From Chloroflexota bacterium (GTDB taxonomy: Bacteria; Chloroflexota; Anaerolineae; Anaerolineales; Anaerolineaceae), in NCBI GenBank assembly GCA_029561345.1, contig JAKQJC010000020.1, positions 1 to 64,000 on the forward strand: a stretch of 64,000 nt of DNA, read 5' to 3'. Below the pieces are notes generated by a model. It saw only the letters and a list, made by a program, of their open reading frames with translations. It made no database searches and was not told where the DNA came from. This document shows, piece by piece, positions 16,789 through 21,106 of the stretch (position 1 is its first letter; every line of letters begins with the position of its first letter). A program made the position numbers and the translations under genes.

Positions 16789-16868
16789 CCAGGTGATCTT
16801 CTGCGCTTGACATTGATACTTTGGCAGCCCAATGAGATGGTGATAGTCGTATTAAGGTTCAAAAACAT

Positions 16869-16896
16869 TTGACACGTTTTTGAATACAGCTATAAT
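16869..16896 (+). promoter_or_regulatory. Sigma-70-type promoter of the AFOR leader
   Basis: TTGACA (16869-16874) and TATAAT (16891-16896) are both perfect consensus hexamers, separated by 16 nt. Transcription would start near 16903, about 290 nt before the AFOR start codon. Confidence 0.75.
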
Positions 16897-16902
16897 TTAA
16901 AC

Positions 16903-17193
16903 ACAAGTCAGACTCTCTCCGATTCACCCATTCCCCCTGGGATAAGTGAACGATACGGCATGCGGAGCAATCTGCATCGCCCGCCAGTGCGCAAAGGAGA
17001 ATCCGTCTGGGCGTAAGCTTGCCCGGGTGGTTTTCTTTGCGCTTTTTTCGTTTTCTTCTCAAGACAATTTCATCAACCTGTCATCACCGAAAGGAGGCTG
17101 CTGCATCTTTCCCTTCAGTTCGTTGACCTTATCTCTCCAACCCGTTGGAGTTTATCGCATCCAAACTCAATCATTTTTTCAGGAGGTTAAGCT
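16903..17193 (+). ncRNA. Structured leader with terminator upstream of AFOR, candidate riboswitch/attenuator
   Basis: The leader contains hairpin TTCAC/GTGAA (16923-16927 with 16946-16950) enclosing TCCC/GGGA, a second helix CGAT/ATCG (16951-16954 with 16976-16979), and then a long terminator: GCGCAAAG (16989-16996) pairs with CTTTGCGC (17035-17042), extendable by G-U pairs, around an inner TCTGGGC/GCCCGGG stem, followed by TTTTTT (17043-17048). A later small hairpin CTCCAAC/GTTGGAG lies at 17136-17151. AGGAGG (17181-17186) is the AFOR ribosome site. A ligand-binding RNA ahead of a terminator in front of a tungstopterin enzyme would fit the Moco/Tuco riboswitch idea, but its conserved sequence was not recognised. 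Confidence 0.5.
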
Positions 17194-18957
17194 ATGTGGT
17201 TTATTCGCGTTAACATGACCGACCGGACGGCCAAGGTTGAAGAAGCCCCCGCCGCCTACAAGCATCTGGCTGGCCGCGCCCTCACTTCCACCGTGGTGGC
17301 CGAGGAAGTTCCACCGCAGGCGCACGCCCTGGGTCCGAATAATAAACTGGTCTTTTCCACCGGCTTTACCACCGGCACCTCAGCCCCCACTTCGTCACGC
17401 CTTTCCATCGGCGGCAAATCACCCCTCACCGGCGGCATCAAGGAAGCCAATGCTGGCACGCCCTGGGCGCGCGATCTGGCTGTGATGCGCATTCGCGCCG
17501 TCATCATTGAAGGCCAGCCGGCCGAGCAGGACAAATGGTGGTGCATTTCCATCAGCATGAAAGACGGCAAACCCGCCGTTGAATTTTATGATGCCACCGA
17601 ATATGCCGGAGCCGGCAAGAGCCTCTACGATGTTTACCCGGCGATGCAGGCCAAGCTCCCCGAAGGTGCCAACCTGGGCGGCATCGGCGTGGCTGGCGAG
17701 CTGGGCTACCCCAACTCGGGCATTGTGTTCAACGATATGCACGGCCGCCCCTCCCGCTATGCCGGACGCGGCGGCCTGGGCGCGGTGCTGGGCAGCAAAC
17801 GGGTGAAATTCATCTCCATCCTTTCCACTGGCGCCCCCGGCGTCGAGATTGTGGATAAGGCCCTCTTCGAAGAAGGCCGCAAGAAGATGATCGAAGGCCT
17901 GCGCTCGCACGCCATCACCAAACCCAAAGGCGGCCTCAATTCTTACGGCACCGCCGTGCTGATCAACATCCTCAACGAAGCCGGAGGCCTGCCCACCCGC
18001 AACTTCTCCAGCGGCCGCTTCGAAGGCGCCCCGCGCATTGCTGGCGAGGCTATTTTCGAATCGAACAAAACCCGCATGGGCAAGGAAGTGTACAACCACG
18101 CCTGCTCGCCGGGCTGCATCATCCAGTGCTCCAACACCGTCTATGCCAAGGACGGCAGCGAAATCACGTCCTGCGTGGAATATGAATCCGACTGGTCGCT
18201 GGGCGCCAACTGCGGCATTGACGATCTGGATGCCATTGCCCATATGAATACCCTCTGCAACGCCTACGGCCTCGACACCATCGAAGCCGGCGTGACCATT
18301 GGCGTGGCCATGCAGGCTGGCGTCATCCCCTTCGGCGATAAGGAAGGCGCCATCAACCTGCTGCACGAGATGGGCAAGGGCACACCCCTGGGCCGCATCC
18401 TCGGCGCCGGCGCTGCTGTCACCGCCAAAGTTTACGGCGTGGTGCGCGCCCCGGTGGTCAAGGGTCAGGCCATGCCGGCCTATGAACCGCGCGCCGTCAA
18501 GGGCATTGGCATCACCTATGCCACCAGCACCATGGGCGCCGACCACACCGCCGGCTACACCATCTGCCCCGAAATTCTGGGCGTCATGGGCAAGCAGGAT
18601 CCCTTGAGCCCCGAAGGCAAGGCGGCCCTCAGCCGCGCCTTCCAGGCCACCACCGCCTTCATCGATTCATCCGGCCACTGCCTCTTCATCGCCTTCGCCA
18701 TCCTCGACATCCCCAGCGCCTACCAGGGCATGATTGACGAAGCCAACGGCGTTCTGGGCACCCACTGGGTGGCCGAAGATGTCATCAAATACGGCTCCGA
18801 AGTGCTGCGCAAGGAACGCGCCTTCAATGAGGCCGCCGGCATCGGCAAAGAAGCCGACCGCGTGCCTGAATTCATGAAGACAGAACCCCTGCCGCCGCAC
18901 AACCAGGTCTTCGACGTGCCCGATTCGGCCCTCGATTCGGTCTACGGCGATCTCTAA
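17194..18957 (+). CDS. aor: Tungsten-containing aldehyde ferredoxin oxidoreductase
   Basis: The 587-residue protein is a full-length member of the AOR family, which oxidises aldehydes to acids with ferredoxin as acceptor, using a bis-tungstopterin and one [4Fe-4S] cluster. The N-terminal domain has 'FSTGFTTGTSAPTSSRLSIGGKSPLTGGIKEANAGT' characteristics and the pterin-binding 'RYAGRGGLGAVLGSKRVK'. Cluster cysteines are in HACSPGCIIQCSN (C-x3-C-x3-C) and DSSGHCLF. No signal peptide is seen, so it is cytoplasmic. The start has AGGAGG eight nt upstream. A perfect terminator follows, then the radical-SAM maturase and the MoaD-like gene. The exact aldehyde substrate is unknown. Confidence 0.92.
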   Translation: MWFIRVNMTDRTAKVEEAPAAYKHLAGRALTSTVVAEEVPPQAHALGPNNKLVFSTGFTTGTSAPTSSRLSIGGKSPLTGGIKEANAGTPWARDLAVMRIRAVIIEGQPAEQDKWWCISISMKDGKPAVEFYDATEYAGAGKSLYDVYPAMQAKLPEGANLGGIGVAGELGYPNSGIVFNDMHGRPSRYAGRGGLGAVLGSKRVKFISILSTGAPGVEIVDKALFEEGRKKMIEGLRSHAITKPKGGLNSYGTAVLINILNEAGGLPTRNFSSGRFEGAPRIAGEAIFESNKTRMGKEVYNHACSPGCIIQCSNTVYAKDGSEITSCVEYESDWSLGANCGIDDLDAIAHMNTLCNAYGLDTIEAGVTIGVAMQAGVIPFGDKEGAINLLHEMGKGTPLGRILGAGAAVTAKVYGVVRAPVVKGQAMPAYEPRAVKGIGITYATSTMGADHTAGYTICPEILGVMGKQDPLSPEGKAALSRAFQATTAFIDSSGHCLFIAFAILDIPSAYQGMIDEANGVLGTHWVAEDVIKYGSEVLRKERAFNEAAGIGKEADRVPEFMKTEPLPPHNQVFDVPDSALDSVYGDL

Positions 18958-19026: not shown

Positions 19027-20214
19027 ATGCCTGTTGTCCATCACACTCCCGACGAGCCCCTGCATCTGCCCCAGGATTTTCTCCAGCGCCGCCAGCTCCC
19101 CGCGGATATGAATTTCTGGCTGGATGAACGCGAGGGTGACCTGATTTTGCGCCCGCGCCTGCCCGACGCCGAAAAGCTCTATATTGAGCCGACCACCGCC
19201 TGCAACCTGGAATGCCGCACCTGCATTCGCCATGCCTGGGAAGACCCGCAGGCGATGATGAACCGCGCCACCTTCGATAAAATTATCGTAAGCCTGCCCG
19301 GCCTGCCCAAACTCAACCGGGTGATCTTCACCAGCTTTGGCGAGCCGCTTACCCATCCAGGGCTGATGGACATGATCGCCGCCGTGCGCCGCGCCAATAT
19401 TGAGGTGACGGTGGGCACCAACGGCCTGCTGCTGAATGCCGATGTGTCGCGTGAACTGATCCGCCTGGGAGTGGACCGCATCATGGTGTCCATTGACGGC
19501 GGCAAGCCTGAAACCTACGAAGGCGTGCGCGGCGCACTGCTTTCACAGGTGATTGAAAACATAGAGCGCTTCAATGCCTTGAAACATGAAATGAATGCCC
19601 TCTTTCCGGCGGTGGGGGTGGAGTTTGTCATCATGCGCAGTAATTTTGGCGAACTGGATGACATCACCCGCCTGGCCATGCGCCTGAACGTTTCGCGCAT
19701 TCTGGTCAGCAATGTGCTGCCCTATGCTGCGGATATGCAGCATGAAACACTTTACAGCCATCAGCCGGTGGAGCCGTTTAAAACCACCAGCTGGGCGCTG
19801 CGCGCCGGGGCCTGGGTGATGTGGGCCACCCTGGAACTGCCGCGCATGCATTGGGGCGCCGAGCGCCGCTGCCGCTTTATCAAAGACAAAGCCATGGCTA
19901 TCGGCTGGGACGGCGGTGTTTCACCCTGCTATGCCCTCTCGCACAATTATCATTACCATGCCATTGACGGCTGCCGCAAGCAGGTGCAGCGCTACGTGCT
20001 GGGCAACGTCAACCAGACTCCGCTCGATGAAATCTGGATGACGGAAGAGTACATGCGCTTCCGCGCCGAGGTGGGCGTGTTCCATTTCCCTTCCTGCCCC
20101 GATTGCGACCTGCGCGATACCTGCGATCTGCGTAAAGACAACGAAGGCTGCTGGGGCCTCAATCCTTCCTGCGCCGACTGCCTCTGGGCGCAGGATATTA
20201 TTCGCTGCCCCTGA
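19027..20214 (+). CDS. Radical SAM/SPASM maturase for tungsten oxidoreductase
   Basis: The 395-residue protein has the radical-SAM cluster motif CNLECRTC (C-x3-C-x2-C) at about residue 59 and the usual barrel features (SFGEPLTHPGL, 'VGTNGLLLNADVSRELIRLGVDRIMVSIDGG'). The C-terminal SPASM region is Cys-rich: 'CPDCDLRDTCDLRKDNEGC' and 'CADCLWAQDIIRC', for two auxiliary [4Fe-4S] clusters. A known group of such enzymes is encoded beside AFOR genes and is thought to modify the tungstopterin or its protein. The adjacency here supports that assignment. The first 55 residues precede the barrel and are family-specific. Confidence 0.85.
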   Translation: MPVVHHTPDEPLHLPQDFLQRRQLPADMNFWLDEREGDLILRPRLPDAEKLYIEPTTACNLECRTCIRHAWEDPQAMMNRATFDKIIVSLPGLPKLNRVIFTSFGEPLTHPGLMDMIAAVRRANIEVTVGTNGLLLNADVSRELIRLGVDRIMVSIDGGKPETYEGVRGALLSQVIENIERFNALKHEMNALFPAVGVEFVIMRSNFGELDDITRLAMRLNVSRILVSNVLPYAADMQHETLYSHQPVEPFKTTSWALRAGAWVMWATLELPRMHWGAERRCRFIKDKAMAIGWDGGVSPCYALSHNYHYHAIDGCRKQVQRYVLGNVNQTPLDEIWMTEEYMRFRAEVGVFHFPSCPDCDLRDTCDLRKDNEGCWGLNPSCADCLWAQDIIRCP

Positions 20215-20488: not shown

Positions 20489-21106
20489 ATGCAATTGCGT
20501 GTCAAACTCTTTGCCACCCTGTCCAGCCTGGCCCCGGTGCAGGGCCTGCCCGGCACTCCCTTCCCTCTGGAAATGCCCGAGGGCAGCCGGCTGGAAGACC
20601 TGGTGCGCATGCTGCGCCTGCCCGATGACCAGGTGAAAATCACCTTTGTCAACGGCATCATCCAGTCTCTCGATTGGTCCCTTGCAGATGGAGACGAGGT
20701 GGGCATTTTCCCGCCCATCGGTGGAGGTTCAGATATGGACGAAATAACCATTGATACCTGGCTTTACGGCCCCCTGGCCCGCTTCGGCGGAGATCCGGAT
20801 CAGGCCTGCTTTGCCAACCCGCAGATGCGCCTGCCTGCCGGCAGCACCATTCGCAGTCTGCTGGCAGCCCTGAAAATGCCCACCGAAGAGCGCGGCATCA
20901 CCTTCATCAACGGCGACCTGAGCGCCATGCCGGGCCTGCAGCCCGACCTGGATCACGAGCTGCACGACCGCGACCGGGTGGCCTTCTTCCACCTGCGCTC
21001 CATGTGGCCCTTTCAATACCGCCACGGCGTGGCCATGACCGACGAAATGTCTGGCGCCATGCAGGAAAGCAAGGACGCCGGCCTGCATCACACCTACACG
21101 GAGTGA
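20489..21106 (+). CDS. Tandem MoaD/ThiS-like protein (two ubiquitin-like domains)
   Basis: The 205 residues contain two beta-grasp domains. Domain 1 (about 1-82) ends 'LADGDEVGIFPPIGGGS', where a free MoaD would end in Gly-Gly. Domain 2 (about 83-175) repeats the pattern ('LPAGSTIRSLLAALKMP', 'ITFINGDL', 'LHDRDRVAFFHLRSM') but has no Gly-Gly and instead a 35-residue tail. MoaD-type proteins carry sulfur as a thiocarboxylate for the pterin dithiolene. The gene follows AFOR and its maturase, so a tungstopterin role is likely. GGTGGAGG (20720-20727) lies 7 nt before an in-frame ATG (20735), so domain 2 might also be made alone. Confidence 0.75.
   Translation: MQLRVKLFATLSSLAPVQGLPGTPFPLEMPEGSRLEDLVRMLRLPDDQVKITFVNGIIQSLDWSLADGDEVGIFPPIGGGSDMDEITIDTWLYGPLARFGGDPDQACFANPQMRLPAGSTIRSLLAALKMPTEERGITFINGDLSAMPGLQPDLDHELHDRDRVAFFHLRSMWPFQYRHGVAMTDEMSGAMQESKDAGLHHTYTE

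Follow-up and report, generated by a model that had tools for sequence, protein, structure and literature searches.

How is a gene for aldehyde ferredoxin oxidoreductase (AFOR) controlled when an intrinsic terminator lies between its promoter and its start codon? This question is raised by the window analysed here, a stretch of 64,000 nucleotides of an Anaerolineaceae genome (contig JAKQJC010000020.1), in which the regulated AFOR gene occupies positions 17194-18957 of the forward strand (PF02730, 164.5 bits; PF01314, 265.8 bits); all window features given below are on this strand. It is followed by a gene for the radical SAM maturase of tungsten cofactor oxidoreductase (19027-20214; TIGR04317, 416.7 bits for a cut-off of 380) and by one for a ThiS/MoaD-like protein, probably of the same cluster (20489-21106; PF02597, 51.3 bits). 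Characterised members of the AFOR family use tungstopterin, and an earlier note on this DNA had proposed that the leader is a riboswitch of the Moco/Tuco type, as a divergent member or a new class.

The anatomy described in that note held up. The promoter, said to have perfect hexamers, is of the sigma-70 type and matches the consensus at 12 of 12 positions (16869-16896), with TTGACA at 16869-16874, TATAAT at 16891-16896 and a spacer of 16 nt. Transcription would start near 16903, which, with the AFOR ATG at 17194, gives a leader of about 290 nt. As claimed, the minimum-energy fold of 16903-17055 comprises two hairpins and, after them, a large terminator; the energy of this fold, -58.1 kcal/mol (z = -3.9), was equalled by none of 200 shuffled sequences. 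The intrinsic terminator spans 16989-17048, with its stem at 16989-17042 and its U-tract at 17043-17048, the end of which is separated by 145 nt from the AFOR start codon. Most homologous leaders have promoter-like sites in the corresponding position: upstream of the conserved element described below, 58 of 87 leaders contain one that agrees with the consensus at 10 or more of the 12 positions, versus 1.6% of shuffles, and sites scoring at least 9 lie 3 to 55 nt ahead of it.

Between the terminator and the ribosome binding site of the gene itself, and at a good distance from the latter, the window leader also carries a lone Shine-Dalgarno-like sequence, CGAAAGGAGG (17088-17097), without a start codon at a suitable distance. 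Such a mid-leader site was detected in 14 of the 26 leaders tested, for 11% expected, and the AGGAGG motif occupies a mid-leader position in L031-L033, L035, L036, L038, L039, L045, L076, L082, L083 and L087 as well. It resembles the stabilising Shine-Dalgarno elements known from Bacillus.

By BLAST against 147 genomes of the same family, the leader matched 25 further places at 77-89% identity, nearly always over the same block of about 83 nt (window 16917-16999), which belongs to the part identified below as an aptamer. In the leaders of AFOR relatives, this element is placed roughly 90 to 310 nt before the start codon. Thirty distinct leaders were gathered into an alignment, A1, from which a covariance model, R1, was built. 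The structure drawn on A1 (P1, P2 with an inner stem, P4 and P5) pairs in 94.6% of cells, and 16 of its 28 pairs show two-sided changes, so that the main helices are supported by covariation. Two-sided changes were counted in 93 cells, versus 26.6 in shuffles, and sliding the partners by one column lowered pairing to 48-54%; neither control equals the proposed structure. Lack of conserved structure in homologous AFOR leaders had been named beforehand as what would refute the riboswitch proposal, and what was found there is a structure both conserved and covarying. A model made from such leaders had also been suggested: R1 scores 97.6 bits on the window copy (E = 4e-24), recovers 15 AFOR leaders held out of its training at E < 1e-4, and extends the structure to 90 matches from many families, in an alignment fitted to the model.

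The element has one copy in its own genome, and it was found in 35 of 147 genomes of the family, 75 of 396 of the class and only 12 of 400 sampled from the phylum. An R1 match was absent from 25 of the 57 AFOR loci fetched, and two further AFOR genes of the same genome lack the element (L210 and L211, at G000:C49:5757-6356 and G000:C27:249509-250105). R1 gave one more match in this genome, on C27, which at 18 bits and E = 0.85 is put down to chance. Two other genomes are particularly rich in R1-type RNAs, with seven in G272 (L161-L167) and five in G199 (L168-L172), located before AFOR paralogues, a molybdopterin oxidoreductase gene (L162) and a gene for a DUF362 protein (L166).

In the window, the two leader hairpins and the 5' part of the terminator together make up one conserved aptamer (16912-17004) of about 85 nt, with P1, P2, P4 and P5 and without P3. 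The 5' strand of P1, UCUCC (16916-16920), pairs with 16996-17000; its outer pair covaries between C-G, U-A and A-U, with 98% of cells paired. P2 (16923-16950) is a hairpin with an internal loop and an apical UCCC/GGGA stem (16932-16942); all six of its lower pairs show two-sided changes, and it is devoid of the tetraloop receptor CCUAAG...UAUGG of canonical copies. Only CGAUA stands between P2 and P4, where P3 is absent. P4 (16956-16982), with two-sided changes in 7 of 11 pairs, is capped by a GCAA tetraloop (16967-16970); among the 90 copies this GNRA loop is GCAA in 69 and GUAA in 15. At the closing position of P4 (16956/16982), the window has C.C and most relatives G.U or A.C. Counts of 39 G.U, 32 A.C and 12 C.C among the 90 copies imply that these two columns change together though not by Watson-Crick rules; the wobble pairs G.U and A.C resemble each other in shape. 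P5 (16983-16992) consists of only two pairs, 16983-16984 with 16991-16992, which hardly vary and read GC/GC here versus CC/GG in alignments of canonical Moco RNAs. The near-invariant AAAGGAG follows, with an AAA junction and the 3' strand of P1, GGAGA (16993-17000), and this segment sits inside the terminator stem.

The covariance search with the Moco/Tuco model, RF01055, proposed in the earlier note, was negative on the window copy and positive on homologous AFOR leaders. Nothing was returned for 16850-17200 up to an E-value of 10, the window copy falling below the gathering score of 36 bits, and there were zero matches in its own genome. In contrast, five homologous leaders matched above that score and in register with the R1 element (L055, 46.0 bits; L038, 40.2; L020, 39.4; L072 and L086, 49.8 each). 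In the reverse search, R1 matched canonical Moco RNAs from this phylum (L170 and L175 at about 55 bits, L092 at 38 bits), and aligned with the E. coli moaA RNA in register but weakly (15 bits, E = 0.02, significant only in a small search). Weak matches of the leader to snoRNA and P37 models, obtained from Rfam with lax settings, were set aside as chance. Since the miss by RF01055 reflects a detection limit and not a structural feature, the window copy was filed as a divergent variant by way of its homologues; most copies of the compact branch are missed by the current model.

Alignment to RF01055 shows that CUCCGA, the P2/P4 junction, GCC.GCC and AAAGGAG are kept, and P1, P2, P4 and P5 are recovered around the highly conserved junction in the alignment, in the pair counts and in the RF01055 alignment alike. 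None of the four GCAA-loop Moco RNAs known at that time had a receptor (PMC2408646), so this feature is not required for membership, and P3-lacking Moco RNAs have been linked to Tuco genes or organisms (PMC2408646). The genes that follow the element are related to Mo/W cofactors, namely AFOR, the tungsten maturase and the ThiS-like gene here, AFOR paralogues and a molybdopterin oxidoreductase elsewhere. Altogether, sequence and structure support the assignment of the window element to the Moco RNAs as a divergent, P3-lacking member of Tuco type, with a cofactor as putative ligand. Three leaders of AFOR orthologues (L072, L086 and L176) go against the rule that P3 means Moco: a P3-like stem, which reads GGAAUC...GAUUCC in two of the three, is present in a Moco RNA that is compact in all other respects.

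The genes that follow bear on which cofactor might be recognised. AFOR is the commonest gene downstream of compact copies, which elsewhere precede AFOR orthologues and distant AFOR paralogues, the latter often behind a 4Fe-4S subunit; the use of tungstopterin by characterised AFORs points to the tungsten cofactor, as does the tie of the P3-lacking form to Tuco genes (PMC2408646). An aptamer of this family might however bind something other than the finished tungsten cofactor, be it molybdopterin, Moco, tungstate or a maturation intermediate made with the radical SAM partner. The compact copies before the molybdopterin oxidoreductase and DUF362 genes are in line with this, and so is the uncleanness of the P3 rule, given P3-bearing RNAs before Tup-like genes and in three AFOR leaders; moreover, according to PMC10845959, the precise identity of the Moco-associated metabolite has yet to be determined. 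Weighing these observations, we hold a different ligand to be unlikely, and, as the P3 rule is unclean, we do not claim specificity for tungsten over molybdenum.

How could such an aptamer act on the AFOR gene? The terminator (16989-17048) is built from the 3' side of the aptamer, overlapping the 3' strands of P5 and P1, so the two structures exclude each other, which predicts an ON switch. Upon stepwise folding of the growing window RNA, P1 appears once the chain has reached about 17002 and persists until 17032; by 17038-17044 the terminator has taken its place. The terminator state is the more stable, at -58.1 kcal/mol versus -45.8 kcal/mol for the aptamer state by direct evaluation. In 88 compact leaders, a mean of 6.0 of the 7 nt of AAAGGAG are drawn into the downstream hairpin, versus 4.4 in shuffles, and the mean energy of this hairpin is -35.1 versus -22.8 kcal/mol; at least 5 of the 7 nt are paired in 86% of cases, versus 54% with shuffled downstream sequences. 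Among the GAAA-type enzyme leaders examined, AAAGGAG is likewise drawn into a downstream hairpin in 13 of 13. Given the high chance background of the pairing test, the case for this wiring is made by energy, U-tracts, position and conservation together; a clear U-tract was absent in 19 of 78 compact leaders scanned. Most enzyme-gene leaders appear to share ON-type wiring, a direction predicted from anatomy. By visual inspection, the leader of a xanthine-dehydrogenase-type gene (L170), outside the tested set, appears to carry a terminator that is separate and OFF-like.

We consider it likely that the AFOR gene is under an ON switch, in which an aptamer of the Moco/Tuco family, with P1 held by the cofactor, prevents termination. 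The RNA started near 16903 would first fold into the aptamer (P1, P2, P4 and P5, with the GCAA loop). Binding of a tungsten (or molybdenum) pterin cofactor would then hold P1 (16916-16920 with 16996-17000), so that 16989-17000 would be unavailable to form the 5' side of the terminator and polymerase would continue into the genes for AFOR, the maturase and the ThiS-like protein. In the absence of cofactor, P1 would be unzipped by the terminator, which has an advantage of about 12 kcal/mol in stability, and transcription would stop; synthesis of the enzyme would thereby be confined to times when its cofactor is present. Direct binding, which could not be shown for Moco RNA in PMC2408646, is presumed here, as are the identity of the ligand and the ON direction in the cell. 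The opposite sign, a ligand that favours termination, would agree with the repression of the E. coli moaA example (PMC2408646) and with the OFF-like look of the ECF and Tup-like leaders of these same bacteria. In the AFOR leaders, however, no alternative antiterminator was seen, and because the terminator stem includes the 3' strand of P1, whatever stabilises P1 must work against termination; an OFF switch at this place is therefore quite improbable.

The leaders of uptake genes are organised differently. In canonical copies before ECF-type transporter genes, AAAGG pairs with the CUUUCC of a separate terminator, and in copies before Tup-like genes AAAGGAG is the ribosome binding site, a few bases from the ATG. 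Judged by this anatomy, both look like OFF switches, and the logic would be coherent: with cofactor present, enzyme on and uptake off. The ECF-type operons follow P3-lacking canonical Moco RNAs (L092, L094, L095, L097, L124, L125 and L127); their membrane protein of roughly 455 aa matches zero NCBIfam models, and is a candidate for the uptake of a pterin or a Mo/W-related compound. Operons with genes for TupA/TupB-like tungstate transporters, an assignment below the curated NCBIfam cut-offs, follow P3-bearing Moco RNAs (L098, L102, L103, L107, L108 and L118) and have their ribosome binding site inside P1; their proteins were scanned for L098 and L118 only. Finally, ABC transporters of the FecCD/BtuC type, possibly for MolBC-like molybdate or tungstate uptake, are preceded by Moco RNAs whose 3' core is altered (CUUUCCGUGUUUGAGAAGGAA; L105, L120 and L121).

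Taking enzyme and uptake genes together, we tentatively suggest, as a possibility short of a probable one, that compact receptor-less Moco RNAs form an ON subclass tuned to the tungsten cofactor that licenses tungsten-enzyme genes, with sister aptamers in the same bacteria working as OFF switches on Mo/W uptake genes. If so, one aptamer family would give opposite responses to one cofactor, and the swapped closing pair of P4 and a different docking of its loop would be part of the retuning from molybdenum to tungsten. The proposal that RNA senses Tuco dates from 2008, and we found no direct test of it in the literature; the published rule, P3 for Moco and no P3 for Tuco, needs checking in Chloroflexota. 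The question becomes directly testable here, owing to a short and clean aptamer, a transcriptional readout on a tungsten-enzyme gene, and OFF-wired relatives for contrast.

Two readings that dispense with a known riboswitch family fare less well. Promoter and terminator bracket a discrete unit, which might be an attenuator under protein control, or a small RNA of about 145 nt standing on its own, located upstream of AFOR only by accident; and this aptamer-terminator unit is conserved, the spacer to the gene much less so. Yet the element keeps its place ahead of AFOR in many genera, it has homology to a known riboswitch family, and the terminator overlaps its conserved core, which makes such a unit very improbable. 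A wholly new riboswitch class merely resembling Moco RNA, the part of the earlier proposal that found no support, was dropped as scarcely credible: the window copy has no Rfam match, P3 and receptor are absent and the closing pair of P4 is altered, but intermediates link compact to canonical forms (RF01055 matches in orthologous leaders, R1 matches on canonical Moco RNAs, and the P3-bearing L072, L086 and L176).

Helices that are held by a ligand and share a strand with a terminator are known from ON riboswitches such as the ZTP and fluoride classes; the likeness is one of mechanism only, the aptamers being unrelated. In a literature search that took in few subscription journals and the main text of PMC2408646, neither an ON-type Moco/Tuco switch nor the AFOR leaders of Anaerolineae were found described. 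What appears new is the compact, receptor-less, AFOR-linked form with a GCAA or GUAA loop in Anaerolineae, predicted to act by antitermination. With the P3-lacking Tuco type of RF01055 it shares P1, P2, P4 and P5 at the same junction, the absence of P3, the core CUCCGA...CGAUA.GG...GCC.GCC...AAAGGAG, a GNRA loop on P4 and a place before W/Mo cofactor genes. It differs by its length (about 85 nt versus 110-150), by the lack of the 11-nt receptor in P2, by its GCAA/GUAA loop, by GC/GC instead of CC/GG in P5, by A.C or C.C in place of G.U at the closing of P4 in about half of the compact copies, and by a terminator built on P1. The E. coli moaA RNA is of the same family, being matched by R1 in register; it has in contrast a P3 and a GAAA loop with its receptor, and controls biosynthesis; it is reported to repress, its P1 containing the ribosome binding site (PMC2408646), and termination has been reported too (PMC12121620, PMC7815308).
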